NCBI RefSeq assembly: GCF_036014195.1
Contig: NZ_CP107918.1
Coordinates: 3,534,001 to 3,598,000, forward strand
Length of the DNA stretch: 64,000 bases
DNA from: Streptomyces sp. NBC_00442
GTDB lineage: Bacteria; Actinomycetota; Actinomycetes; Streptomycetales; Streptomycetaceae
Direction of reading: 5' to 3'
Shown: in pieces, positions 10,809-59,557 of the stretch
How the letters are laid out: every line of letters begins with the position of its first letter
Position numbering within the stretch: position 1 is the first letter of the stretch
Notes under the pieces: generated by a model
Told to the model about the DNA's origin: nothing
The model's database searches: none
The model's input: the letters and a program-made list of their open reading frames with translations, nothing else
Made by a program: the position numbers and the translations under genes

Positions 10809-13780
<2,972 letters not shown>

Positions 13781-46613: not shown

Positions 46614-46647
46614 GTGCACTCGGCAGGATTCGAACCTGCAACCTTCT
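46614..46647. repeat. tRNA-Arg 3' end copy A (outer-left attachment site)
   Basis: 34 bases identical to the 3' end of the intact tRNA-Arg gene at 59516, including the T arm (GATTCGAACCTGC on this strand). Identity ends at ...CCTTCT, inside the anticodon arm. It borders core DNA and the original terminator on its left. Confidence 0.92.
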
Positions 46648-48208: not shown

Positions 48209-48257
48209 ACCTGTGTGCACTCGGCAGGATTCGAACCTGCAACCTTCTGATCCGTAG
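48209..48257. repeat. tRNA-Arg 3' end copy B (junction of the two elements)
   Basis: 49 bases identical to 59509-59557, ending ...GATCCGTAG in the anticodon loop and extending a few bases outside the tRNA. It is longer than the match with copy A (34 bases). Confidence 0.92.
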
Positions 48258-48362
48258 GCGCGTGCGCCCCCGTCGAGAGCCAGTTGCACGCCGGGCGGAG
48301 ACCGGGTTGAGAGGCTTGCTCAAGCCATGCCGTATTCGTGGATGTCTCCCGGTGTACGCCCA

Positions 48363-48386
48363 CGTTGATGTCAGCCGTTGATGTCA
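48363..48386 (+). repeat. Left arm-type repeats of the AICE
   Basis: CGTTGATGTCA at 48363-48373 and 48376-48386, 13 bp period. The same pair with the same spacing is at 59452 and 59465 near the other end. The right copy of the left pair overlaps the end of the GNAT gene by three bases. Confidence 0.75.
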
Positions 48387-48953
48387 CACAGCGATAATTG
48401 GTGTCGGCGCCAAAGTCGCGTCGTCCAGCCCGTGACCTGCGTCGACTCGTGCTGGCCGCTGTGCAAGCCACCCCGAGACGCGCGGCCCGCCATTCACCGC
48501 CCCGCCCTCCGTGACCGTGCGAACGTGCTCGAATCCGTGGTTGAGGTAGTAGCGCTGGAGCGGCTCGTTCGTGGTCCAGGCATCCAAGCGGAGCCATGCG
48601 GCGCCGGACCGGTACGCCCGGTCACCTGCCCAGTCGAGCAAACGCCCGCCGAGATCCTGTCCGGCATGCGTCCGTGCCACCGTCAGTTTGTTCACGAACA
48701 TCGACGGCTCGGATAGTTCCGCGTCCGACCAGAGGCCGTCTTCCGCATCCGGGGTCAGCGTTATGGTCGCGGCCGTGGCTTCCCCGTCGCGAACCATGAA
48801 GACCACACCGGCCTCGATCGTGGCAAGCAATCGGTCCGCCGGGTACGGGCGGCGCCACTGGTCTGTGCCTAGCTCACCGAGCCAAGCCGCCGCCTCCTCT
48901 CGGAAGGCGAGCAGCTTGGGCAGATCGGCCGGCACGGCGTTGGCGATTCTCAC
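48384..48953 (-). CDS. GNAT-family N-acetyltransferase
   Basis: 189 residues from GTG 48951-48953, overlapping the GntR stop by four bases. MFVNKLTVARTHAGQDLGGR (the acetyl-CoA loop, V.R..G.DLGG) and AWLRLDAWTTNEPLQRYYLN, HGFEHVRT fit the GNAT fold. Its target is unknown; it could modify a small molecule, a drug or a protein. It is translationally coupled to the element's regulator gene, so it is probably expressed under GntR control, and may be cargo giving a benefit to the host. Confidence 0.88.
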   Translation of the reverse strand: MRIANAVPADLPKLLAFREEAAAWLGELGTDQWRRPYPADRLLATIEAGVVFMVRDGEATAATITLTPDAEDGLWSDAELSEPSMFVNKLTVARTHAGQDLGGRLLDWAGDRAYRSGAAWLRLDAWTTNEPLQRYYLNHGFEHVRTVTEGGAVNGGPRVSGWLAQRPARVDAGHGLDDATLAPTPIIAV

Positions 48954-49723
48954 TGAGGCTCGTTCTCACTCCGGGCGGACAGGTCGCCGATCTCGTAGTT
49001 CATCCGGTTCAGGTCGCCCCGGAAGGTCGTGACAGTGCACCGGATCGGACGTTCATTGGAGTACCCAGTGCGTGTCCACAGAAGCACCGGGACCCCCGCG
49101 CCGATCTCCAGAAGACGAGCCTCTTCGGGCGTCGGCATACGAGCGGCGATTTCGTCGAAGTAGCCGATCTGCTCGACTCCCAGACTCGCCAGGTAGCGCG
49201 TCGTGCCCTCCGCGATGTCCCCGGGGTCGGTCAGTCGCGGCCCCTGCTCGACGAGCCACTCCGGGTAATGGGTGGCCTGTGTCGACCACGGAACGTCATC
49301 TACGAACCGGTGGCAGAACCTCAGTACGGCCGTGGAACCCTCCTCAACCTTCAAGCGCTCAGCCACGTATCCCGGGGCGGGAGTCAGCTCGACTCGGAAG
49401 GTTTGGTGCGGTCGGCGCCCCGCGTTCGTGACGTCCGTGCTGTACGCGTCGCCGTTCTGCGGGAACTCCAGGTTCTCGAAGCGTGAGGCGTTCAGCTCGA
49501 ACACCTCGTGCTTGGCGACCTCGTATCCAAGTCCCTGGCTGGACGAGATGAGCCCCTGCGTCACAAGGAGACTCAGACCGTTGCGGACGGTGTTGCGAGA
49601 CGCGTCGAAGCGGGCGGAAAGCTCGCTCTCTGAGGGCAGCCGTGATCCCGGCGGGTACGTGCCGTTGTCGATCTCTCGGCGGAGTGCATCGGCCACCTGC
49701 CGGTACTTCGGCTGCTTGTTCAT
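48950..49723 (-). CDS. GntR/HutC-type regulator of the AICE (KorSA/TraR-like)
   Basis: 257 residues from ATG 49721-49723 with GATGAGGG upstream. The GntR winged HTH is at about 1-70: KYRQVADALRREIDNGTYPP, GSRLPSESELSARFDASRNT, VRNGLSLLVTQGLI. The UTRA ligand-binding domain occupies about 95-250. In AICEs such as pSAM2 a GntR protein (KorSA) represses genes for excision and transfer. Two CTTGT-N4-ACAAG-like operators lie just upstream, suggesting autoregulation. It is divergent from the transfer operon. Confidence 0.92.
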   Translation of the reverse strand: MNKQPKYRQVADALRREIDNGTYPPGSRLPSESELSARFDASRNTVRNGLSLLVTQGLISSSQGLGYEVAKHEVFELNASRFENLEFPQNGDAYSTDVTNAGRRPHQTFRVELTPAPGYVAERLKVEEGSTAVLRFCHRFVDDVPWSTQATHYPEWLVEQGPRLTDPGDIAEGTTRYLASLGVEQIGYFDEIAARMPTPEEARLLEIGAGVPVLLWTRTGYSNERPIRCTVTTFRGDLNRMNYEIGDLSARSENEPQ

Positions 49724-49749
49724 GCCCTCATCATGACGCACTCGCGCAA

Positions 49750-49832
49750 CTTGTTGGTACATGTAGGCCTCAATCCCTTGACGACTCACTGTCCGTGGGT
49801 GCAGCATCACTGCATCAGCTTGTACCAACAAG
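49750..49832. promoter_or_regulatory. Two GntR operator-like sites
   Basis: CTTGTTGGTACA (49750-49761) and its exact reverse complement TGTACCAACAAG (49821-49832) flank the gntR promoter. Each is itself a CTTGT-N4-AC(A)-type dyad as bound by HutC-class GntR proteins. The pair lies 27-110 bases upstream of gntR and could allow looping. Confidence 0.75.
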
Positions 49833-50192
49833 CTGAGCAAGCGGTTCAATTCCTTCGAGTTGCTCCGGTTGCGCTGAACTTGCATGGCCAGGGGCCCGGG
49901 ACAGAGCGGGCCGAGGTTTCCCGGCGCCTTGTCAGCCGGAGGGCTTGAGACCGAAAGGTCACGTCCCCATACGCCTTCAACGGGAGCTCCGCTCCCAAAG
50001 GGGACTCGTACAGCTCAGCTATTCGCCGCTTCTGCGGCGGCCGGTTGCCTCCTCTGCCCGTCCGGCCCGTGGGGTCGTACGGACGGGGTTGAGGGGAGCC
50101 GGATTGACCGACTTCAACGGCGCGCGGCCCCGGTGCGGGAACACCGGGGCCGCTGTTCGAGCCGCACCCACCTACTAGGGAGACCACGACTC
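49833..50192. promoter_or_regulatory. Leader of the transfer operon
   Basis: 360 bases without a convincing gene. A perfect 12 bp hairpin GCGGCCCCGGTG (50124-50135) with CACCGGGGCCGC (50142-50153) lies 40 bases before the DUF6284 start. It may be an attenuator or an RNA-processing element. The AGGGAG ribosome-binding site is at 50177-50182. Confidence 0.5.
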
Positions 50193-50462
50193 ATGAAGAA
50201 CATCGCTGCACTTCAGACGGCCGTTACCGGCACCCTGCCGGACATCGAGCCGACGCCAGCCGAACTGGACGCCATCGACATCGAGATGCCGCTGATCCTG
50301 GCGCGCGTCGAGCTGCTGGACGCACAGATCATCACGCTCGACCGCACCCCGAACGAGCTGGACGCGCGCCGTGTCCGCCGGGCCCGGCGCAACGTCCTCA
50401 GGGCCCGTCGGGCGCTCACCAATCAGTCGGCCGCCCTGGGGACGTCGGGGGTGGGCGCGTGA
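50193..50462 (+). CDS. DUF6284-type small AICE protein
   Basis: 89 residues: MKNIAALQTAVTGTLPDIEP, PAELDAIDIEMPLILARVEL, LDAQIITLDRTPNELDARRV, RRARRNVL. Mainly helical, with a basic C-terminal part. Small proteins of this kind open many Streptomyces AICE transfer operons; the role is unknown. The stop overlaps the next start by GTGA. Confidence 0.72.
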   Translation: MKNIAALQTAVTGTLPDIEPTPAELDAIDIEMPLILARVELLDAQIITLDRTPNELDARRVRRARRNVLRARRALTNQSAALGTSGVGA

Positions 50463-50902
50463 ATGCCAACGACTCCCTCAACTCCGCCCACGCCGAGGTG
50501 AAGGCGGAGATCTCCCGGACCGACACCAAGGTCAGTCTGCTGCTGGCGTTCGTCGGCGCACTGCTGGCCGGCGCGGGGTCGGTAGCTAAGGACATGGCGC
50601 CCGGCGTGAGTGTCTGCGTCGTGGGCGGTCTCGGCATGGCGGCGCTGATCGTGGCGGCCGGGCTGCTGCTGCGGTCGGCCCGCCCGAACCTGCGGGGCCG
50701 TCACGGCTTCCCCCTGTGGGCGACCCTGACGGCCGCCGAGATCACCAACGCCGTGGCGACGGACCGGGCAGCTGACATCGCGGGTCTGTCCCGGATCGCG
50801 GTAGCCAAGTTCACCGCCCTGCGCCGCGCGGTCGACCTCACGATGGTCGGCGGCGGTCTGCTGGTCGCCGCGCTCCTTCTGCATGTCGGTGGTGCGGCAT
50901 GA
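50459..50902 (+). CDS. PycTM-like (Pycsar effector-type) membrane protein in the transfer operon
   Basis: 147 residues from GTG 50459. An N-terminal helix (DSLNSAHAEVKAEISRTDTK) leads to two membrane hairpins: VSLLLAFVGALLAGAGSVAK and CVVGGLGMAALIVAAGLLLR, then a soluble helix with AAEITNAVATDRAADIAGLS, and AVDLTMVGGGLLVAALLLHV at the end. This order, D-T-K start and closing R-A-V-D-L-T match what I remember of PycTM, the effector of Pycsar cyclic-UMP/CMP defence. No uridylate/cytidylate cyclase is nearby, and similar proteins recur in AICE transfer operons, so a role in transfer or mating-pore formation is as likely. Confidence 0.55.
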   Translation: MNANDSLNSAHAEVKAEISRTDTKVSLLLAFVGALLAGAGSVAKDMAPGVSVCVVGGLGMAALIVAAGLLLRSARPNLRGRHGFPLWATLTAAEITNAVATDRAADIAGLSRIAVAKFTALRRAVDLTMVGGGLLVAALLLHVGGAA

Positions 50903-51756
50903 ACCGCAAGCCCAAGACCCTGCTGGTGGTCGCGCTGGTGGCCGTGGTCGGCATGGCGTTCCGGGTGTCGTGGAACGCGTTGCGGGACGTGGCCCGAGCG
51001 ATCGGCGCCGACCACACCGCAGCCACGCTGTACCCGTTCGTCGTCGACGGGCTGATGGCGCTTGCACTGGTCGCCACGCTCGTGCTGACCGCTGAGGCCC
51101 GGCGGTTCGCGCTGCGGGTGCTGGGCACCTACACCGCCGCCTCCCTCGTCCTCAACTACGTCCACGGTCTGGTTCCGGCGCTGCACGGCGCGTCGGTCGA
51201 CTGGGGACGGCTTGCCGACTGGGACCCCGCGAACTGGGCGCTCGTGCTGCTCGCGACATCGCTTCCGGTCGGCTCGATCTACTTCGGGTCCGATCTGGTC
51301 GCCAAGGTCCTCCACCACCAACCGGACCCGATCACGAATGCGGAGAAAATGACCGAGAGCGTGAACAATCGGTCGATGGCTGACCAGGGCGAACCCTCCC
51401 CGATCCCGGTCGCCGTGAACCCGGTGCCGATCCCCCGGGCGGTCCAGGTCGGGTTCCTGAAGTCCACCGTGGCGCTCAAGCCGCTCCCCGCGATCGAGCC
51501 CGTACCGGTCCGCCCCGTGTCGACGGTGGCGGCCGACTCGACACGGCCCCGCCGGGCGACCGGTCGGGTCCCCGACAGTGCTCGGTCGGCTCGACCCAAG
51601 CGCACCCCGGACGAACTCTTGGCGCAGGCGCGGGCCGCATCGGTGGACTGGCCCGACGCCTATCTGACGGCCGACCGGATCCGTAAGACGGTTCACACGT
51701 CGGCGGAGAAGGCGCGGGGGCTGCGGGACACGCTGCTCGCTGAGCGGGCCGCGTGA
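50899..51756 (+). CDS. DUF2637 (SpdB-like) membrane protein
   Basis: 285 residues, ATGA overlap with the preceding gene. Four membrane segments in the first 130 residues: LLVVALVAVVGMAFRVSWNA, LYPFVVDGLMALALVATLVL, YTAASLVLNYVHGLVPALHG and WALVLLATSLPVGSIYFGSD. This is the DUF2637 pattern of Streptomyces plasmid spread proteins. The long C-terminus is Pro/Arg-rich and ends in a helical module, AQARAASVDWPDAYLTADRI. Spread proteins help plasmids move through septa after the first transfer. Confidence 0.85.
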   Translation: MNRKPKTLLVVALVAVVGMAFRVSWNALRDVARAIGADHTAATLYPFVVDGLMALALVATLVLTAEARRFALRVLGTYTAASLVLNYVHGLVPALHGASVDWGRLADWDPANWALVLLATSLPVGSIYFGSDLVAKVLHHQPDPITNAEKMTESVNNRSMADQGEPSPIPVAVNPVPIPRAVQVGFLKSTVALKPLPAIEPVPVRPVSTVAADSTRPRRATGRVPDSARSARPKRTPDELLAQARAASVDWPDAYLTADRIRKTVHTSAEKARGLRDTLLAERAA

Positions 51757-52097
51757 TGGCCACGCTTCCGGTCTACCGGTGGCGTCTGGCCCCGGATGGC
51801 TTCGCCACGCGTCGCCAGCTCCGGGCACGGGGCTTGCGGCCCGGTGGTCAGGACGTGGCCGCGCAGCTCGAACGGCCCCGGCGACGGCGGGGTCCACTGG
51901 TCGCCTACCTGTACCGCGTCGAACTCGCCAAGCCGGTGCGCCCGATGACGCCGGCGCGGTGGGCGGCGCTGGCCAAAGCGAACACCGCCCGCCGCTGGTG
52001 CCCTTCCTGCCGCCGGGACGCCGGATACGTCATGCCGCTCTCGCTCGGCACCTGCGTGCCCTGCGATTCCCGTTCCACCTCTCCTAGGAGTGCGTGA
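51756..52097 (+). CDS. RRQ-motif zinc-binding AICE protein
   Basis: 113 residues from ATG 51756 (TGATG with the stop before). WRLAPDGFATRRQLRARGLR carries the RRQ-L motif usual for this small family, followed by QLERPRRRRGPLVAYLYRVE. Two Cys pairs, CPSC (about residue 86) and CVPC (about 103), form a zinc ribbon. It is a regular member of Streptomyces AICE transfer operons; perhaps DNA- or protein-binding. Confidence 0.8.
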   Translation: MATLPVYRWRLAPDGFATRRQLRARGLRPGGQDVAAQLERPRRRRGPLVAYLYRVELAKPVRPMTPARWAALAKANTARRWCPSCRRDAGYVMPLSLGTCVPCDSRSTSPRSA

Positions 52098-52414
52098 TGG
52101 GCAAGCCCGACACCCGGCGTCTCGACCGGGAGATCCAGAACAACGAACGCAAGCTGGAAGCGGTCCAGAACCGCGAGCTGTGGCCGCTCAACGGCCGGGA
52201 GCGCCGGGCCGTGCTCGGCGGGGTCGTGTCGACCGCGCGGGGCATGCACCGGGGCACCGGCACCGCTCACGGAGACCGCCGCATCGACACCGCATGGCAG
52301 AGCGCAGAAACCCGGCTGGTCGCGGAGATCGCTGCGCTGCGGACCGAACGACAGCGCGTCGTCACCGACGCCGCCCGCGCCAAGGCCGCCAAGAAGTCCT
52401 CCGGCTGGTGGTGA
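52097..52414 (+). CDS. Small helical AICE protein
   Basis: 105 residues from ATG 52097 (AGGAG upstream, TGATG coupling). RRLDREIQNNERKLEAVQNR and ETRLVAEIAALRTERQRVVT are predicted coiled coils with heptad spacing; the end is Lys-rich with SSGWW. No known domain. It precedes traSA by 67 bases and may support transfer. Confidence 0.7.
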   Translation: MGKPDTRRLDREIQNNERKLEAVQNRELWPLNGRERRAVLGGVVSTARGMHRGTGTAHGDRRIDTAWQSAETRLVAEIAALRTERQRVVTDAARAKAAKKSSGWW

Positions 52415-52481
52415 ACAGCGTGCCCGCCCGCCTCTCCTCTCCCCTTCACCTCGAACACGGGACAGTCAGGAGTCAACTCCC

Positions 52482-54599
52482 ATGGATTCCAACGTAGTTC
52501 GCCTCACCAAAAGCACCACTCCCGCCCCGCAGGGCGCCTCTGGGGCATCGGTCGCTGCTGTAGCAGCGCCGGGCGCTGAAAAGCCGTCTGTGCCCCTGTG
52601 GGTGCGCTCCGGGCGGGCCGTGCACGGCATCGTCGCCCACGAACACACCCGCACCGCCGCCCGGTTGACGGTCCGCCACGGCATGTACGTGGTCGGCGGC
52701 ACCCGCATCGTCGCCAAGCGCACGTGGGAGGGCCGCACCGCCACCCGCTACGAACGCATGCTCCGTGCCGCCGAAGCCGCCGGGAACTACGAGGTCGCAG
52801 CCGAGTGGGAAGAGCGCGGCCAGCGCTTCCGCGACGCCCGCCACCGCCGCCGCATGGACCTCCTCCACTCACCACTCGACGCCGCCAAAGGCGTAGCCGT
52901 GAGCGCCGGCATGGGCGTCGGGTCGCTCGTCGCGCTCGGGGTCGTCATGGCGATCGCGACCAAGGACGTCACGCAGGTCGTCACGCCGCTCATGGCGACG
53001 GTGGAGTTCATCAACCTCCTGATCACGGTGGCGACGGTGGTGTGGGGTCCGGCCGTCACGATGGGCCCGTTCCTCGCGCTGCTCGCCCTGTGGGGCGTCG
53101 GCCGCCACCAGCAAGCCGCCCCCAACTGGGCACTCCCCGCAGCGGTCCGCAACGGTGAGGGCGAGCCGATCACCCCGTCCATCGTCGTCAAGGCCCTGCG
53201 CGACCTCGGCGTGCCCGCACTGGGGCGGGCCATCAAGGAGATGGGCGACGCCGGCGCGGCGATGCTCGGACCGATCCGGATCGCCGGATGCGGCGTGGAA
53301 GTCGACGTGACCTTGCCTTCTGGGGTGTCGACGAACGAGGTGCAGAACCGTCGGCGCAAGCTTGCCGAGAACCTGTCCCGGCATGAGCACGAAGTGTTCA
53401 TCACCATCCCGCAAGCCGCCCGCACCGTCCGCCTGTGGGTGGCCGACTCCGGGGCGCTGGATGAGCCGATCGGCCCGTCCCCTCTGGTCACGGACGAGAC
53501 GATGACCGCCGACTACGGCAAGGGTCGCGCCCCCTGGGGCCAGGACCTGCGCGGGGATGCGGCGGCCATCAGCCTCTACCAGCGCCACCTGTTGATCACG
53601 GGCCTGTCGAACCAGGGCAAGACCGTGGCGCTGCGGTCGCTGGCTCTGTGGCTGGCGCTGGACAAGTCGGTGCAGTTCCTGATGGGTGACCTCAAGGGCG
53701 TGGGCGACTGGGCCATGTTCGACGGGCTGGCGAAGACGCTGATTCAGGGCCCGACGGACGATCACGTCATCCAGGTCACGGAGATGGTTGAGGGTGCGGT
53801 GGATGAGATGAACCGCCGCATCCAGGCACCGCAGGGGACCGCGTTCCCGCCGCTCATCGTGCTCGTAGATGAGGCGCAGGTGGCGTTCATGTGCCCGGCC
53901 AAGGACGACGAGAAGCGCCCCTACGGCGGCTCGAAAGCCAACTCCCGCTACTTCATGGCCGTCCGCAAGATCCACAACCAGGGTCGGGCCGTGAACGTCC
54001 TGATGTGGCAGGGCACCCAGGACCCGACCAACGAGAACCTGCCCAAGCTCGTGCGCGAAGGCGCCCACACCCGAGCATCGCTCGCGCTCGGCACCGAGTC
54101 CCAGGCCCGCATGGCGCTGGGGGACAAGGCCGTTGACGGCGGCGCCGCCCCGAACCTGCTCCGCCCGGGGCTGGACCGGGGAACGCTGGTCGTCGCGTCC
54201 GACGGCATCGCCATTCCCGCGGGACAGGCCTCCATCACGGTCCGCACGCACTACGTCGACGACGACGCGGCCAAGGCCATCACCGAGCGGGCCAAGGCCC
54301 TGCGCGACGGCGTCACCACCCTGACCGTCATCGAGAAGGGCGAGCAGCGTGACCCGCTCGCCGACATCGCCTCTGTGGTCGGCACCGCAGAGCGGGTCCG
54401 CACGAAGGATGTCCTTGCCCGGCTCGCGTCGCTCAACGCCGGCGCCTACGGCAAGTGGTCCTTCCTCGACCTCAAGCGCGTCCTGGACGGCACCGGGGCC
54501 GAGCCCTACAAGTCTGATGGCGTGATGGTCGTCGGCCGCGACCGCGTCTCCCGGGCACTCGCCAACCGCGACGCAGACGGTTCCGCTTCCGCCGCGTAG
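52482..54599 (+). CDS. traSA: FtsK/SpoIIIE-type conjugative DNA translocase
   Basis: 705 residues from ATG 52482. Two or three membrane segments at about 145-210 (VAVSAGMGVGSLVALGVVMA; MATVEFINLLITVATVVWGP). The motor domain has Walker A GLSNQGKT (about 371-378) and Walker B LIVLVDEAQ (about 458-466), then the R-x-H-A/T-R-A-S-like segment (VREGAHTRASLALGTESQAR) seen in TraB/TraSA. The C-terminal winged helix (about 630-695, RTKDVLARLASLNAG...LDLKRVLDGTG) is like the FtsK gamma domain that reads short DNA repeats. It pumps double-stranded DNA into the recipient. Candidate recognition repeats begin right after its stop. Confidence 0.9.
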   Translation: MDSNVVRLTKSTTPAPQGASGASVAAVAAPGAEKPSVPLWVRSGRAVHGIVAHEHTRTAARLTVRHGMYVVGGTRIVAKRTWEGRTATRYERMLRAAEAAGNYEVAAEWEERGQRFRDARHRRRMDLLHSPLDAAKGVAVSAGMGVGSLVALGVVMAIATKDVTQVVTPLMATVEFINLLITVATVVWGPAVTMGPFLALLALWGVGRHQQAAPNWALPAAVRNGEGEPITPSIVVKALRDLGVPALGRAIKEMGDAGAAMLGPIRIAGCGVEVDVTLPSGVSTNEVQNRRRKLAENLSRHEHEVFITIPQAARTVRLWVADSGALDEPIGPSPLVTDETMTADYGKGRAPWGQDLRGDAAAISLYQRHLLITGLSNQGKTVALRSLALWLALDKSVQFLMGDLKGVGDWAMFDGLAKTLIQGPTDDHVIQVTEMVEGAVDEMNRRIQAPQGTAFPPLIVLVDEAQVAFMCPAKDDEKRPYGGSKANSRYFMAVRKIHNQGRAVNVLMWQGTQDPTNENLPKLVREGAHTRASLALGTESQARMALGDKAVDGGAAPNLLRPGLDRGTLVVASDGIAIPAGQASITVRTHYVDDDAAKAITERAKALRDGVTTLTVIEKGEQRDPLADIASVVGTAERVRTKDVLARLASLNAGAYGKWSFLDLKRVLDGTGAEPYKSDGVMVVGRDRVSRALANRDADGSASAA

Positions 54600-54600
54600 A

Positions 54601-54782
54601 TCAGGGAGCGAACCCCCGGCGGGTCAGGGAGGCAGGGAGAACTCCCTAACCCCCTCCCTGACCCGCCTCCCTGGCTCCCACCTGCGCAAATGATCTGCCA
54701 GGGAGTCAGGGAGGCCCGCAGGTCAGCACCCCCGAAACCCCCTCTACAGCGCACCCGGCAGGGGGTGCCTCCGCCTCCCTGC
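54601..54782. repeat. TCAGGGAG repeat cluster after traSA: candidate clt (TRS) locus
   Basis: Nine close copies of YCAGGGAG in either orientation: 54601, 54624, 54632, 54642 (partial), 54654, 54667, 54698, 54706 and 54775. TraB-type translocases bind 8-base repeats (TRS) in a clt locus normally next to the tra gene. A perfect inverted pair at 54618-54632 and about 54652-54666 also makes a strong hairpin. Confidence 0.65.
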
Positions 54783-54804
54783 CTCACTCCGGAAGGGATT
54801 CCGC

Positions 54805-55260
54805 ATGTTCCCCGAACACCCCCGGCACGTCCCCGCTGAACGGGCCGTCGAAGTCCACCACCCCACCCCGATACCGCCCATCCCGGCGCCGCTCGTACCG
54901 ATGCAACCGAGCACCGTGCCGACCGTGGCGAGCATCGTCCTGCCCAACGGCCAGATCGTCACCGGCTACGCCATCGAGCCCGCCAAGCCCGAACCGCTCG
55001 CCGCCAAACCGGCCGTGTCCCGCACCGCCGTGAACGTCGCACTCGGCGGCATCGGCTTCGCCGCTGTGTGCGGCGGGCTACTCGTCCTAACGACGTTCAT
55101 CGCCGCCATGGCCGCCCTGATCCACCAGCTCATCATTCTCGCCGCCGTGATCTTCGGTGGCTGGATCGCCGTACAGGTCCTCGGACCCCGCCCCGGGGAC
55201 GGCGGCACCGTCGTCAACATCCGCAAAGCGATCTTCAAGCGCAACCACTTCCACGGCTAG
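54805..55260 (+). CDS. SpdD-like AICE membrane protein
   Basis: 151 residues. A Pro-rich N-terminus (HHPTPIPPIPAPLVPMQPST) is followed by IVLPNGQIVTGYAIEP, two membrane segments at about 75-97 (VALGGIGFAAVCGGLLVLTT) and 103-125 (ALIHQLIILAAVIFGGWIAV), and a short basic tail (IRKAIFKRNHFHG). Position, length and architecture are like SpdD or related spread proteins between tra and rep in AICEs. The assignment is by architecture only. Confidence 0.6.
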   Translation: MFPEHPRHVPAERAVEVHHPTPIPPIPAPLVPMQPSTVPTVASIVLPNGQIVTGYAIEPAKPEPLAAKPAVSRTAVNVALGGIGFAAVCGGLLVLTTFIAAMAALIHQLIILAAVIFGGWIAVQVLGPRPGDGGTVVNIRKAIFKRNHFHG

Positions 55261-55345
55261 CTACGCCAAGGGCGGCCCCCGTCTCGCCAAAGTCCGGGGC
55301 CGCCCTTGCCTGCCAGCACTCATCACAGAACTGGAGACACCCAGC

Positions 55346-56263
55346 ATGACCCAACACGACCCCGACGTGAAGCGAGCCTTACTCGATACGGCTCTCACGG
55401 CTGCCGAATGCGGCTGGCACGTCTTCCCGCTGCGTCCCGGCACCAAGCGCCCGGCCCTGCACGGCGAAGCCTCATGCTCCGCCACGGGCCCGTGCGCCAG
55501 CGGGCACCGCAAGTGGGAGCAGCGCGCCACCACCGACCTCGACCGCATCCGAGCGACGTGGGAGCGGACACCGTTCAACATCGGTATCGCCACCGGCCCT
55601 TCCGGGCTGGTCGTCGTCGACCTGGACGTGCCCAAGCAGAACGACAACAGCAATGCGGACACGCCTTGCGGCGTGACGACCTTTAAGGCGCTCTGCGAGC
55701 GCACCGGCCACGCCGTCCCCGACACCTACCGGGTGCGGACTGCGAGCGGCGGACAGCACCTCTACTTCACCGCACCGACAGGTGTCCGGTTAGCCAACAC
55801 GGCGGGCTCACTGGCCCCGTTGGTCGACACACGGGCATGGGGCGGGTACGTCGTCGCCCCGGGCAGCATCACGCCGACCGGCGCTTACGAGACGGCGAGC
55901 GATACGCCGGTAGCTCCCCTGCCCGCATGGCTGGTGCGGCTACTCCAACCGGCGCCCGCGCGCCCGGCCAGGCCGTTGCGGCTGCCCGCAGTGAGTGGGA
56001 GCCGTGCGGCGCGGGCCGCGCTGGCTGCGGAGTGCGCCGTGGTCACCGCGTCGCCGGACAAGCAGCGCAACATCACGCTCAACCGGTGCGCGTTCAAGGT
56101 GGGGCGGTTCGTCGCGTGGGGCGACATCCCCCGGCACGTGGTGGAAGAGGCCTTCCAAGCGGCGGGGGAGGCGCGGGGACTCACCGCTGCGGAGTGCCGC
56201 TCCACCATCGCGAGCGCCCTCAACAGCTCCCTGCGCAAAGCCCGTTCCCGGGATGCGGCATGA
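55346..56263 (+). CDS. Prim-Pol-type bifunctional DNA primase/polymerase
   Basis: 305 residues from ATG 55346. The Prim-Pol domain is at about 10-210: GWHVFPLRPGTKRPALHGEA, NIGIATGPSGLVVVDLDVPK (metal Asp-x-Asp), VRTASGGQHLYFTAPTGV (catalytic His) and RAWGGYVVAPGSI. The C-terminal ~85 residues are helical with AGEARGLTAAECRSTIASAL, as in the usual C-terminal part. AICEs with this gene replicate through a Prim-Pol plus helicase unit. ATGA overlap with the next gene. Confidence 0.9.
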   Translation: MTQHDPDVKRALLDTALTAAECGWHVFPLRPGTKRPALHGEASCSATGPCASGHRKWEQRATTDLDRIRATWERTPFNIGIATGPSGLVVVDLDVPKQNDNSNADTPCGVTTFKALCERTGHAVPDTYRVRTASGGQHLYFTAPTGVRLANTAGSLAPLVDTRAWGGYVVAPGSITPTGAYETASDTPVAPLPAWLVRLLQPAPARPARPLRLPAVSGSRAARAALAAECAVVTASPDKQRNITLNRCAFKVGRFVAWGDIPRHVVEEAFQAAGEARGLTAAECRSTIASALNSSLRKARSRDAA

Positions 56264-56616
56264 GCCCGCGACTGCCTTCCGCCTTGGAAGGCCAACCCGC
56301 CGCCACCGGCCCGCACGCCGCCGAATCCGCCCCGCCCCGGCCGGTCGTGGGCGCCCCGAAAGGCGTCGCCCGAAGGGCGTCCGCTTCATCGGTTCGCTGT
56401 GGCCGGCACAACTACGACGACGGCCGCCGCCCCGTGGCCTGGCTCCACATCTGCGCGCCGCGTGGCGCCGTGCCCACGGCGACCTCGAAGTGCTTGTGCG
56501 GCCGGGACCGCAGCGCCGTTGGCCACCGCCGGGTGCTCGCGCTCATCGACGACCACACCGCCCACCTTGACCGCTGCCCGCTCTGCGCTCCCCGGGAAGG
56601 CAGGACCGCCGCATGA
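56260..56616 (+). CDS. Small Cys-rich AICE protein between Prim-Pol and helicase
   Basis: 118 residues from ATG 56260, overlapping its neighbours by ATGA on both sides. The C-terminal half carries VRCGRHNYDDGRRPVAWLHI, C-A-P-R, KCLCGRDRSAVGHRRVLALI and DRCPLC, arranged as two probable zinc knuckles. The N-terminus is Pro/Ala-rich. No family recognised; position suggests a replication accessory role. Confidence 0.65.
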   Translation: MSPRLPSALEGQPAATGPHAAESAPPRPVVGAPKGVARRASASSVRCGRHNYDDGRRPVAWLHICAPRGAVPTATSKCLCGRDRSAVGHRRVLALIDDHTAHLDRCPLCAPREGRTAA

Positions 56617-57776
56617 CCACCACCCCGCCCCCGCCGTCCATCGACGGCGCCGCACTCCTCGATGACGTCGAAGCGTTCCACCGCCGCTTCAACATCTTCC
56701 CCAGTGAAGCCGCCTACGTCGCCGTCGCGTTGTGGGACGCACACGCCCACCTGCTCGACTGCTTCGACTCCACCCCGCGTCTGGCGTTCCTGTCCCCGGA
56801 GCCGGGATCAGGCAAGTCGCGGGCGCTGGAAATCGTGGAAACCCTCGTGCCACGCCCCATGGTCGCGGTGAACGCGTCCGCCGCCGCGCTCTTCCGCGCG
56901 GTGTCCGGTGCCGAGGGTCGGCCCACGATCCTGTTCGACGAGATCGACACCGTCTTCGGTCCAAAGGCCGGGGACAACGAGGAACTGCGCGGGTTCCTCA
57001 ACGCCGGACACCGCCGCACCGGGGTCACCTACCGGTGCGTGGGCGACAGCCAGACCGTCACCCCGTTCCCGTCCTACGCCGCCGTCGCGGTCGCAGGTCT
57101 CGGCTCCCTGCCCGACACGATCCTGACCCGCGCCGTCATCATCCGTATGCGCCGCCGGGCCCGCAACGAGAAGGTGGAACCCTTCCGCGCCCGCCTGCAC
57201 GAGAAGGAAGGCCACGCCCTGCGGGACCGCCTTGCCGAGTGGGCTGAGCAGGCACGCGGCTGGGTCATGGGCGCGTGGCCCGAGATGCCCGAAGGGGTCA
57301 GCGACCGGCCCGCCGACGTGTGGGAAGGACTCCTGTCCATCGCGGACGCGGCCGGGGGCGACTGGCCCAAGCGCGCCCGCCAAGCCTGCCTGACGCTCGT
57401 GGAAGCCTCCCGCGCCAACGACAAAGGCAGTCTCGGCATCCGCCTCCTGACCGACCTACGCGACCACGTCCTGATCGGCATCGACCGCCTGCCCACCGTC
57501 GCCATCCTGGACCGGCTCAACGCACTTGATGACGCCCCGTGGGCCGACCTCAACGGCCGGCCGCTCGACAACCGGCGCCTGTCCAAGATGCTCAGCGACT
57601 ACGTGACCGCCGACGGCGACCCCATCGCCTCCCGCAACATCCGCACGAGCGGCGGAATCCTCAAGGGATTCTTCGCCGAAGACCTCACCGACGCGTGGGC
57701 CCGCTACTGCCCGTCTCCCACGTCCGCTACAAGCGCTACGCCGCTACATCCCAGCTCAGAGCCCCTGCCCCTGTAG
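56613..57776 (+). CDS. DUF3631 ATPase (replicative helicase of the AICE)
   Basis: 387 residues. Walker A PEPGSGKSRALEI (about 62-74), Walker B TILFDEIDTVFG (about 104-115), sensor-like LNAGHRRTGVTYRC and an arginine finger candidate in TILTRAVIIRMRRRARNEKV. The DUF3631 region (about 190-365) follows, with LLSIADAAGGDWPKRARQAC and SKMLSDYVTADGD. It should unwind DNA for the Prim-Pol protein. Its last ~18 codons (SPTSATSATPLHPSSEPLPL) run through the first iterons of the repeat array, so the 3' end and the candidate origin overlap. Confidence 0.87.
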   Translation: MTTTPPPPSIDGAALLDDVEAFHRRFNIFPSEAAYVAVALWDAHAHLLDCFDSTPRLAFLSPEPGSGKSRALEIVETLVPRPMVAVNASAAALFRAVSGAEGRPTILFDEIDTVFGPKAGDNEELRGFLNAGHRRTGVTYRCVGDSQTVTPFPSYAAVAVAGLGSLPDTILTRAVIIRMRRRARNEKVEPFRARLHEKEGHALRDRLAEWAEQARGWVMGAWPEMPEGVSDRPADVWEGLLSIADAAGGDWPKRARQACLTLVEASRANDKGSLGIRLLTDLRDHVLIGIDRLPTVAILDRLNALDDAPWADLNGRPLDNRRLSKMLSDYVTADGDPIASRNIRTSGGILKGFFAEDLTDAWARYCPSPTSATSATPLHPSSEPLPL

Positions 57777-57902
57777 CGGCAAACCCAGATGTAGCGGCTA
57801 CGGCCCCCACCCCCCGAAACGGCCGTAGCCGCTACATCCCACCCCTCCGCTACAAAAATTATGCCGCTGACCTGCGATGTAGCGGCGTAGCGGATGTAGC
57901 GG
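57724..57902. repeat. Eight TGTAGCGG iterons in mirror-symmetric array: candidate AICE origin
   Basis: Perfect 8-mers lie at 57724, 57741, 57829 and 57847 (CCGCTACA) and at 57772, 57790, 57878 and 57895 (TGTAGCGG). Start-to-start distances are 17, 31, 18, 39, 18, 31 and 17, a palindromic series, and orientations also mirror (two reverse, two forward, two reverse, two forward). The array sits between the helicase gene and xis. Confidence 0.85.
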
Positions 57903-57954
57903 ACCCCAGAGAAGGGGCCCGACCCCTCCCCCTCGCAGACACGAGGAGACACCC

Positions 57955-58152
57955 GTGAGCACCGCGCTGCCTGCCTCACACGACGTCGTCACCGTCCCCG
58001 AGGCGATGACGGCCCTGCGGCTGAGCCGCAGCAAGATCTACGACCTCATCCGTTCGGGAGTGCTGCGCAGCTACACCGAAGGCCGTGCACGCCGCATCCC
58101 GACAGAGGCACTTCAGACCTACATCCACAACAAGCTTGAGGAGGCTGCCTGA
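57955..58152 (+). CDS. xis: Excisionase-type HTH protein
   Basis: 65 residues from GTG 57955 (GAGGAG upstream). VVTVPEAMTALRLSRSKIYD, LIRSGVLRSYTEGRARRIPT, EALQTYIHNKLEEAA is the MerR-like/excisionase HTH that directs the integrase to cut the element out. It is coupled to int by TGATG. Confidence 0.9.
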   Translation: MSTALPASHDVVTVPEAMTALRLSRSKIYDLIRSGVLRSYTEGRARRIPTEALQTYIHNKLEEAA

Positions 58153-59435
58153 TGGCCAAGCGCCGCGCCAACGGTGAAGGAACGATCACCAAGCGGAAGG
58201 ACGGTCGCTATCACGCGGCGGCCTACGTCTACCGCCCGGACGGCACCCGGGTCCGGAAGTTCGTCTACGGCAAGAACCGCGACGAAGTTGCGGGCAAGCT
58301 CACCGAGATCCAGGAGAAGACTCGGCAGGGCATCCCGGCCGCCACGTCCGCCATGGCGTTCGGGGACTACTTGACGTACTGGCTGGCGGCCGTGGCGCCG
58401 GCACGGCTGAAGCCCGCAACCCTCAACAGCTACGAAGGGCTGACCCGCCTCTACATTCGTCCCGCGCTCGGCAAGAAGAAGCTGAACCGCCTCTCCCCCG
58501 CCGATGTGCAGCTGTTCCTGCTGGAGTTCAAGTCCGGCTGTCTGTGCTGCCTGCGGGGCGTCGACGCCGGACGCCCCGAGGGTGAGCGAACTTGCTGCGC
58601 GGTCCGGCAGTGCTGCAAGCGGCGGCCGTCTGCCCGCACGGTCCAGTACACGCACGCCGTATTGCGCTCTGCGCTCCAACAGGCGGTCCGGGAGGAGCTG
58701 ATCGCGCGCAACGTCGCCCGGATCGTCGAAACGCCCAGCGTCGAACGCCAGGAGGTACACCCCTTGGACGCAGGAGAAGCCCGTCTGCTCCTCAAGACCA
58801 CCCGGCCGCACCGCCTGTACGCCCTGTGGCTACTGCTGATCAGTACGGGGCTGCGACGCGGTGAGGCGCTGGCCCTCACGTGGTCGGACATCGACCTTGA
58901 GAACGGACAGCTCCGCGTCCGGCGGAACCTTCAGCGGATCAAGCGGGAGCTGCTGTTCGGCACGCCCAAGACCGCACGGTCCATCCGTACGGTCTCCCTG
59001 CCCAAGCACTGTGTGGCTGCTTTGCGTGCCCATGCAGAACAGCAGACGCGGGAGCGAGCGGTGGCCGGCGAGAAGTGGAAGCCCCCGGCAGAGCAGCCCA
59101 ACGGCCTGGTGTTCACCACGGCCACCGGCCGGGCCACGGACCCCCGCAGCCTGAACCGGATGCTCACGATCCTGTGCCGGGACGCCAAGGTGCGGCGGGT
59201 GCGGGTGCACGATCTTCGGCACACGTGCGCGTCGCTGCTCCTGGCTCAGGGGGTCGACGCGCGCACGATCATGGAGACGCTCGGTCACAGCACCATCACC
59301 ATGACGCTGGATACCTACGCTCACGTGATGCAGACGACCTTGCGCGCGGCTGCTGACCGTATGGACGACGCGTTGGGTCTGGCCGAAGAGAAAGAGGCGG
59401 ACGGGGATGAAACGGAGCCCGACGCCGCAGCCTGA
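58152..59435 (+). CDS. int: Tyrosine site-specific integrase
   Basis: 427 residues. Arm-binding N-terminus (NGEGTITKRKDGRYHAAAYV), SAM-like core-binding domain (about 65-190) with a Cys-rich insert (SGCLCCLRG...CCAVRQCCK, about 128-156) seen in Streptomyces AICE integrases, and a complete catalytic domain: Arg235 (STGLRRGEAL), Lys273, His353-x-x-Arg356 (HDLRHT), His379 (LGHST) and the nucleophile Tyr389. It recombines the element with the 3' end of tRNA-Arg(ACG). Followed by arm repeats, a terminator and the att site. Confidence 0.95.
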   Translation: MAKRRANGEGTITKRKDGRYHAAAYVYRPDGTRVRKFVYGKNRDEVAGKLTEIQEKTRQGIPAATSAMAFGDYLTYWLAAVAPARLKPATLNSYEGLTRLYIRPALGKKKLNRLSPADVQLFLLEFKSGCLCCLRGVDAGRPEGERTCCAVRQCCKRRPSARTVQYTHAVLRSALQQAVREELIARNVARIVETPSVERQEVHPLDAGEARLLLKTTRPHRLYALWLLLISTGLRRGEALALTWSDIDLENGQLRVRRNLQRIKRELLFGTPKTARSIRTVSLPKHCVAALRAHAEQQTRERAVAGEKWKPPAEQPNGLVFTTATGRATDPRSLNRMLTILCRDAKVRRVRVHDLRHTCASLLLAQGVDARTIMETLGHSTITMTLDTYAHVMQTTLRAAADRMDDALGLAEEKEADGDETEPDAAA

Positions 59436-59451
59436 GTCCGCCCGACGGGGA

Positions 59452-59475
59452 CGTTGATGTCACCCGTTGATGTCA
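59452..59475 (+). repeat. Right arm-type repeats of the AICE
   Basis: CGTTGATGTCA at 59452-59462 and 59465-59475, identical in sequence and spacing to the pair at 48363-48386, and 34 bases from the att core. Confidence 0.78.
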
Positions 59476-59509
59476 AAGGCCCCCTGGACGATGTCCAGGG
59501 GGCCTTTGA
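59473..59509. terminator. Bidirectional terminator between int and tRNA-Arg
   Basis: A perfect 17 bp stem (59473-59489 with 59493-59509), with A-rich and T-rich feet, closes on GAT. It would end int transcripts from the left and tRNA-Arg transcripts from the right, replacing the host terminator lost at integration. Confidence 0.9.
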
Positions 59510-59557
59510 CCTGTGTGCACTCGGCAGGATTCGAACCTGCAACCTTCTGATCCGTAG
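59509..59557. repeat. Attachment site copy C within intact tRNA-Arg
   Basis: 49 bases identical to copy B (48209-48257); the first seven bases lie outside the tRNA and come from the element. Copy C is joined to the 5' half of the tRNA and thus keeps a working gene. Confidence 0.92.

Follow-up and report, generated by a model that had tools for sequence, protein, structure and literature searches.

Between the replication genes and the xis gene of an integrative element of Streptomyces sp. NBC_00442 lies a mirror-symmetric array of short repeats, and the question raised by this locus is which function such an array might serve. An earlier note on the window, the whole stretch of 64,000 nucleotides that was analysed, had proposed it as a candidate origin of replication, with binding by Xis as the alternative. 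The surrounding element showed the gene order FtsK/TraB-like gene, orf, Prim-Pol, small Cys-containing protein, repAM, array, xis and int (Table 1). As is characteristic of AICEs, int and xis were located beside att repeats at a tRNA gene (49-bp repeats, tRNA-Arg), and an FtsK/SpoIIIE-type Tra protein (PF01580, E 5e-8) was encoded together with a Rep module (PF12307, Prim-Pol). As is characteristic of iteron origins, multiple short repeats were found beside an initiator gene. This gene had been called a helicase in the earlier note, a label that we correct here: its product belongs to DUF3631, which the available part of PMC3218068 gives as the RepAM initiator family of AICEs. RepAM contained a Walker A (PEPGSGKS) and a Walker B motif (LFDEID), both recognized by eye, and residues G67, K68, D109 and E110 were invariant in the family alignment. 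The element also encoded for a Pycsar effector transmembrane domain protein (PF18967, E 2.3e-13; 50459-50902). A partial third copy of the att/tRNA-Arg 3' sequence (34 bp identical, 46614-46647), located approximately 1.6 kb left of the left repeat, may be left over from a further element arranged in tandem.

Table 1. Features of the element and of the box array (positions refer to the window)
Feature	Positions	Strand	Evidence
Whole element, 11.3 kb, between 49-bp identical att-like repeats 48209-48257 and 59509-59557 (3' end of tRNA-Arg)	48209..59557	.	
Prim-Pol (bifunctional primase/polymerase) gene	55346..56263	+	phrog_5852, E 5.1e-32
Small Cys-containing protein, between prim-pol and repAM	56260..56616	+	
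repAM, DUF3631 (PF12307) initiator	56613..57776	+	E 7.9e-62
RepAM C-terminal domain (~residues 290-367), proposed box-reading, predicted winged-helix-type	57480..57713	+	profile similarity
Residue 344 codon (Arg in this element)	57642..57644	+	
Whole mirror-symmetric box array, candidate replication origin of the AICE; TGTAGCGG starts and strands 57724-, 57741-, 57772+, 57790+, 57829-, 57847-, 57878+, 57895+	57724..57902	.	
Left outer tandem boxes: exact 57724-57731 and 57741-57748, degenerate copy in between	57724..57748	-	
Motif M, left copy (CAGCTCAG; other-strand consensus CTGA[CG]C[TA]G)	57752..57759	-	
Left inner box pair 57772-57779 and 57790-57797, 18 bp apart; holds the repAM stop codon	57772..57797	+	
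Central palindrome round the two innermost boxes; arms 57788-57803 and 57823-57838	57788..57838	.	
Right inner box pair 57829-57836 and 57847-57854	57829..57854	-	
Short A+T-rich tract AAAAATTAT adjoining the right inner pair	57854..57862	+	
Motif M, right copy (CTGACCTG)	57867..57874	+	
Right outer tandem boxes: 57878-57885, degenerate ~57886-57893, 57895-57902	57878..57902	+	
xis (excisionase), swapped between relatives	57955..58152	+	TIGR01764, 1.2e-10
int (tyrosine integrase), swapped between relatives	58152..59435	+	PF00589, 9e-26

By count, the box TGTAGCGG occurred eight times within 179 bp in the orientation <<>><<>> and with the spacing 17-31-18-39-18-31-17, exactly the mirror-symmetric arrangement that had been described. 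The window contained 10 copies, eight of them inside the array, versus 1.2 expected and a largest count of 5 in 100 shuffles. The two remaining words, at 11363 and 12470, were isolated and near the chance number. Exactly palindromic spacing was obtained in 4 of 2,000,000 random placements in which the six inner sites were moved and the end sites fixed, orientation not being counted. When compared without gaps to its own reverse complement, the array was equal at 122 of 179 bases (2000 shuffles: mean 45.8, maximum 80), and folded as a single DNA strand it formed one long hairpin (-64.3 kcal/mol, z = -12.2). The pair CCGCTACA-N20..27-TGTAGCGG was found at only two places in the 7.7-Mb host genome, both within the array. 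The overlap of the array with the last codons of the upstream gene proved real, as the repAM tail codons (SATSAT) overlie the left boxes and the third box includes the stop codon TAG (57774-57776). Degenerate mirror copies, claimed at 57733 and 57886, also exist, and the resulting outer triples recurred among TGTAGCGG-type relatives. The stretch 57600-58300 showed no pattern resembling a sigma-70 promoter or a terminator. Rfam matches on the array (Scr3202 with 25.5 bits at a gathering cut-off of 52, MIR8622 with 44.6 bits at 197, and three weaker ones) were all below their cut-offs and were rejected; they probably reflect the palindrome of the array.

A genome scan with the RepAM protein yielded 276 relatives; the 80 best of them were retained. 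Iterons of conserved spacing had been suggested as the feature to seek at the same place in other elements, and absence of the array from close relatives that keep the replication genes as the finding that would speak against an origin. We observed the opposite of such an absence: all 80 of these best relatives showed at least six NGTAGCGG boxes within 330 bp past RepAM residue 366. The boxes were of the TGTAGCGG-type (T-type) in 42 and of the GGTAGCGG-type (G-type) in 38 relatives. The full T-type form was <<< >> << >>> with spacings 9,8,31,18,37-41,18,31,8,9, and one relative with both outer triples complete (L059) had 9,8,31,18,38,18,31,8,9. Among the 42 T-type relatives the mirrored core (31-18-centre-18-31) was kept in 29; the left outer triple was full in 29, the right in 24 and both in 17. 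In some relatives the T-type central spacer measured 61, 71 or 72. G-type arrays shared with these the outer tandems and the right-hand '< 31 >>>' half. Their left side usually held one inner box plus several extra boxes and formed no mirror image, with both inverted 31-33-bp pairs kept in only 4 of 35 non-redundant GGTAGCGG-type arrays. Because of this 4 of 35, and of the 29 of 42 T-type relatives with the full core, strict mirror symmetry, exact as it is in the window, is not essential. The spacer between outer and inner boxes contained motif M, which was mirrored in T-type arrays.

We also searched for RepAM in 246, 394, 391 and 393 genomes of the class or order, in overlapping draws and with three queries besides that of the window. 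Matches were obtained in 30, 51, 207 and 54 genomes, respectively; the 207 were relatives at E 0.001 or better in genomes drawn from the order, which makes RepAM-type genes common, and a few of the matches behind the 54 cover the query tail only. At least six xGNNNCGG boxes of one core were present in the 420 bp past the RepAM domain in 157 of 202 assessed locus segments, which include some repeat fetches of the same place. A mononucleotide-shuffle yardstick, noisy in C-rich segments, was exceeded by 148 of the 202. The other 45 segments, with RepAM at most 67% identical to that of the window, had at most five such boxes, other words or none, and some of them showed no visible array. Reduced to loci below 95% RepAM identity, the 157 box-bearing segments gave a non-redundant set of 106 loci, with the boxes TGTAGCGG (38), GGTAGCGG (35), TGTGGCGG (13), TGGGACGG (7), TGTTGCGG (7) and others (6). 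More distant RepAM genes carried other boxes, namely TGTGGCGG, TGTTGCGG, TGGGACGG and TGGTACGG, in some cases with the same half-site spacing. Loci L100 and L102 showed the spacing 9-31-18-13-17-32-9 despite a different box sequence, L102 having TGGGACGG boxes, a RepAM 41% identical and motif M in both spacers. Locus L219, from a viral contig that was found by box pattern alone, had TGTAGCGG boxes, a RepAM 52% identical and the spacing 9-9-32-18-13-18-42-9, in which the 42 spans a degenerate box.

In the 106 loci the paired arrangement of boxes was more frequent than with random positions: the pair '< 31-33 >' was present in 98 loci (35.7 with random positions), '< 17-19 <' in 102 (38.3), '> 17-19 >' in 88 (18.5) and both inverted pairs in 52 (7.4). 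Motif M was found in 129 of the 151 '< 31-33 >' spacers of this set. Among the relatives were two plasmid records that are closed circles (13.5 and 14.3 kb) and hold 11 and 10 GGTAGCGG boxes, respectively. Both contain int, repAM, Prim-Pol, an HTH (xis-like) gene and an FtsK/TraB gene; such elements therefore exist free of the chromosome. A BLAST search of the array against plasmids returned one related record and one short chance-like match.

The relatives further allowed the question of which protein tracks the box to be addressed. Nearest neighbours at less than 97% identity had the same box type in 79 of 81 cases for RepAM, versus 40 of 73 for Prim-Pol and 24 of 55 for TraB, the latter two being about chance, and TraBs 96% identical to each other carried T-type versus G-type arrays (L039/L033, L016/L048). 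Prim-Pol was rejected as box reader. The small Cys-containing protein, of which two clearly different types are shuffled between elements, was rejected too, because both types occur with both boxes. For Int, 7 of the best 80 relatives gave no detectable match to that of the window, 56 were below 35% identity, 9 at 35-60% and 8 at 60% or more; a Xis match was not found in 38 of the 80, and the array was present nonetheless. Since int and xis are swapped or undetected in relatives that keep the array, binding by Xis is disfavoured, and similar int and xis classes occurred with T and G arrays alike. Although the array adjoins xis, we therefore consider it extremely improbable that it consists of Xis or Int arm-type binding sites. 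Its end approximately 50 bp before xis and its overlap with the end of repAM would also suit an operator through which RepAM or a regulator represses xis/int and its own operon. However, most relatives have exchanged the downstream genes (int in 63 of 80 and xis in 38 of 80 fell below 35% or gave no match), and a fixed geometry across 180 bp exceeds the needs of an operator. This is very unlikely to be the main function of the array, but it could be a secondary one. The candidate-origin proposal, on the other hand, gained support from the comparison, as the array follows repAM in all 80 relatives and its box type changes along with RepAM but independently of Prim-Pol and TraB.

Within RepAM, the association was centred on residue 344. 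In the window and the best 80 relatives this residue was Arg in 43/43 T-type and Lys in 38/38 G-type elements. In the 106 non-redundant loci Lys occurred with G-first boxes (35/35) and Arg with T-first (67/67) and C-first boxes (4/4; T/C together 71/71). Among the scored RepAM columns in these loci, residue 344 was the best for the first box base and residue 348 the next. For the fourth box base the best column was 349, where phylogeny is a stronger confounder, and for box bases 3 and 5 the best columns were scattered over the entire protein and are therefore attributed to phylogeny. A tree from RepAM residues 1-311, which leaves out the reading region and in which a few long branches are unsure, required seven changes of box type, at least five of them forced by well-supported branches. 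The third positions of codons 318-366 except 344 and 348 reached an MI of at most 0.58, versus 1.00 for residue 344. Linkage partly confounds this result: only 80 bp separate the residue-344 codon from the array, and cassette exchange of codon and array together explains part of the covariation. The same switch was also observed on another core, with five boxes each in L089 (Lys, GGTTCCG) and L091 (Arg, TGTTCCGG). Statistically, these data identify RepAM as the partner of the box, and residue 344 appears to read its first letter.

The innermost boxes form the heart of a palindrome whose flanking bases vary between elements yet tend to stay complementary. In T-type flanks (32 distinct loci fitting the search) none of 2000 shuffles equalled the pairing at -3, -2 and +12, and in G-type flanks (43 distinct) none of 2000 equalled it at -3 and -2 while five reached it at +7; these shuffles ignore relatedness, and shared ancestry inflates such counts. 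Most remaining flank positions showed no excess of pairing. The co-variation is compatible with hairpin extrusion or with a symmetric protein complex; an alternative cause could be copy-correction of palindromes. No strong A+T-rich unwinding element was present in the array, which offers only the 9-bp tract AAAAATTAT and, instead, the central palindrome; an A-rich tract recurred at the place of AAAAATTAT in an alignment of 26 T-type loci. The co-varying pairs of the central hairpin might also suggest a nick hairpin (dso) of a rolling-circle initiator, and the available part of PMC3218068, citing a review, predicts rolling-circle replication for RepAM with pC194-like nick sites. But the hairpin loop was not conserved, no match to a Rep or relaxase family was obtained for RepAM in Pfam/NCBIfam, and the Walker motifs and the many oriented, iteron-like boxes disfavour this view, which makes RepAM highly unlikely to be a rolling-circle initiator.

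From these comparisons we consider it probable that replication of this RepAM/Prim-Pol AICE starts at the array, which would work like an iteron origin, built as two facing half-origins and served by the putative AAA+ initiator RepAM, with its C-terminal domain on the boxes and residue 344 on their first base. In each half-origin, an outer set of two or three tandem boxes would be followed by a 31/32-bp spacer that holds motif M (CTGACCTG) and then by an inner pair of boxes spaced 18 bp. RepAM, encoded just upstream, would bind each 8-bp box by a C-terminal domain of winged-helix type, in which residue 344 might read the first base (Arg for T, Lys for G). Because the halves face each other, two RepAM assemblies would load head to head; the central palindrome may then be opened or extruded by them, leaving exposed single strands that would be primed by Prim-Pol. 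The facing halves suggest bidirectional copying of the excised circle. We infer these steps, from RepAM binding and melting to initiation, priming and bidirectionality, and with them the role of motif M. This reading names a likely origin, its likely binding protein and a base-reading residue, and makes the question of rolling-circle versus iteron/theta replication directly testable. It would also provide a natural example of an origin and an initiator that change specificity repeatedly and in step.

The C-terminal domain of RepAM has distant counterparts. In hhalign comparisons, whose E-values apply to single comparisons, the profile of its C-terminal ~75 residues matched the C-termini of phage FtsK/SpoIIIE-like proteins (phrog_1358) with 92.5% probability over 58 columns, and these matched AICE TraB C-termini with 97.5%. 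Directly, RepAM and TraB C-termini reached 19-32%, and non-C-terminal segments of RepAM and TraB and segments of Prim-Pol at most 2.4%. Comparison of the RepAM profile with the sequences of solved structures gave no match at E 0.01. The phage proteins were encountered next to arrays in viral contigs that had been picked out by box pattern. Scans for this pattern gave 66 viral stretches, 27 of them with at least five boxes in 260 bp. RepAM was found in four of the 66 (L219, L221, L249 and L269, the last two being the contigs of L115 and L114) and was not found in 23 of the 27 box-rich stretches. At the position matching residue 344, phage FtsK-like proteins had Lys with G-boxes in L235 and L243 and in L273 (87% to L243), and Arg with T-boxes in L228; L287, with Arg and C/T boxes, and L276, with Arg and mixed boxes, were not clear cases, and L285, with His and four G-boxes, was a misfit. 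At least five GTAGCGG boxes lay near the FtsK-like gene in 6 of 17 rows (L235, L272, L273, L276, L280 and L287; L272 is the contig of L243, and L280 that of L228). Since 10 of the 17 rows showed no comparable array, including L274, L275, L278 and L281 with Lys and L277, L282 and L284 with Arg, few cases support the code on the phage side.

A six-box GTAGCGG array that agreed in orientation and in the pattern of first bases, read forward or in reverse, was shared by L204, L205, L206, L207, L213, L216, L225, L226, L230 and L231, and no RepAM-like protein was found in the viral contigs of this group. Arrays of TGTAGCGG in two clusters were present in the phage contigs L208 (6520-6777), L229 (3096-3353) and L210 (190-435), the last adjoining an ORF with weak matches to DUF927 and DNA-primase families.

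Phage contigs with GTAGCGG arrays beside FtsK-like genes, together with the distant similarity of the TraB C-terminus to that of RepAM, direct or more strongly via the phage proteins, would also accord with a clt transfer locus bound by the FtsK-like TraB of the element, and the TraB of pSVH1 recognizes 8-bp repeats by means of a winged helix (available part of PMC3583192). However, TraB failed to track the box (24 of 55, and the 96% identical TraBs with both box types), and 12 of the 80 relatives keep the array with only a TraB-like match below 35%; at 24 of the 80 loci there was no TraB match, in some because the fetched flank ended. We therefore judge a clt to be a very improbable identity of the array. 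Tentatively, and with somewhat more doubt than confidence, we suggest that one mobile domain reading 8-bp boxes serves RepAM initiators, TraB translocases and phage FtsK-like motors, with a one-position code (Arg-T, Lys-G) in RepAM and a few phage FtsK-like proteins, and that half-origins and protein specificity diverge together. If true, their joint divergence could give rise to compatible replicon lineages in the same hosts.

In the origins of SaPI rep and of theta plasmids, the C-terminal domain of the initiator, as proposed here for RepAM, reads short iterons, arranged in two sets beside its own gene. The array described here differs from them in the protein family, the mirror spacing and the Prim-Pol partner. 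The gene beside the array shares its Pfam family with the RepAM (DUF3631) initiators of pMEA300-type AICEs. In the available part of PMC3218068, RepAM is at times paired with Prim-Pol and is predicted as a rolling-circle initiator, with no iteron array or box specificity given, whereas here a box array is found. No mapped origin or binding site for RepAM-type genes was met in the literature searched, although pMEA300 replicon papers outside it could describe part, and the box letters as a literature query gave no title on the subject among the matches listed. The closest worked example in this literature is the repAB/iteron locus of the Streptomyces plasmid pWTY27, for which the available part of PMC3583192 describes a Prim-Pol gene, an initiator gene and adjacent 8-bp and 7-bp repeats in an inverted repeat of ~105 bp bound by RepA, with bidirectional replication and a separate clt. 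It shares Prim-Pol, initiator and adjacent repeats with the present locus, but its repeats (GTGGGAAC and TTCCCAC) differ from our boxes. A RepAM search of the plasmid collection, outside which pWTY27 may lie, gave three records, none named pWTY27. For pSAM2 no clt is described in the available part of PMC9513070. In the Streptomyces TRS/clt system, 8-bp repeats are read by the C-terminal winged-helix domain of TraB (available part of PMC3583192), to which the C-terminal domain of RepAM is distantly similar; unlike in TRS/clt, the box type of the present array follows RepAM and not TraB.
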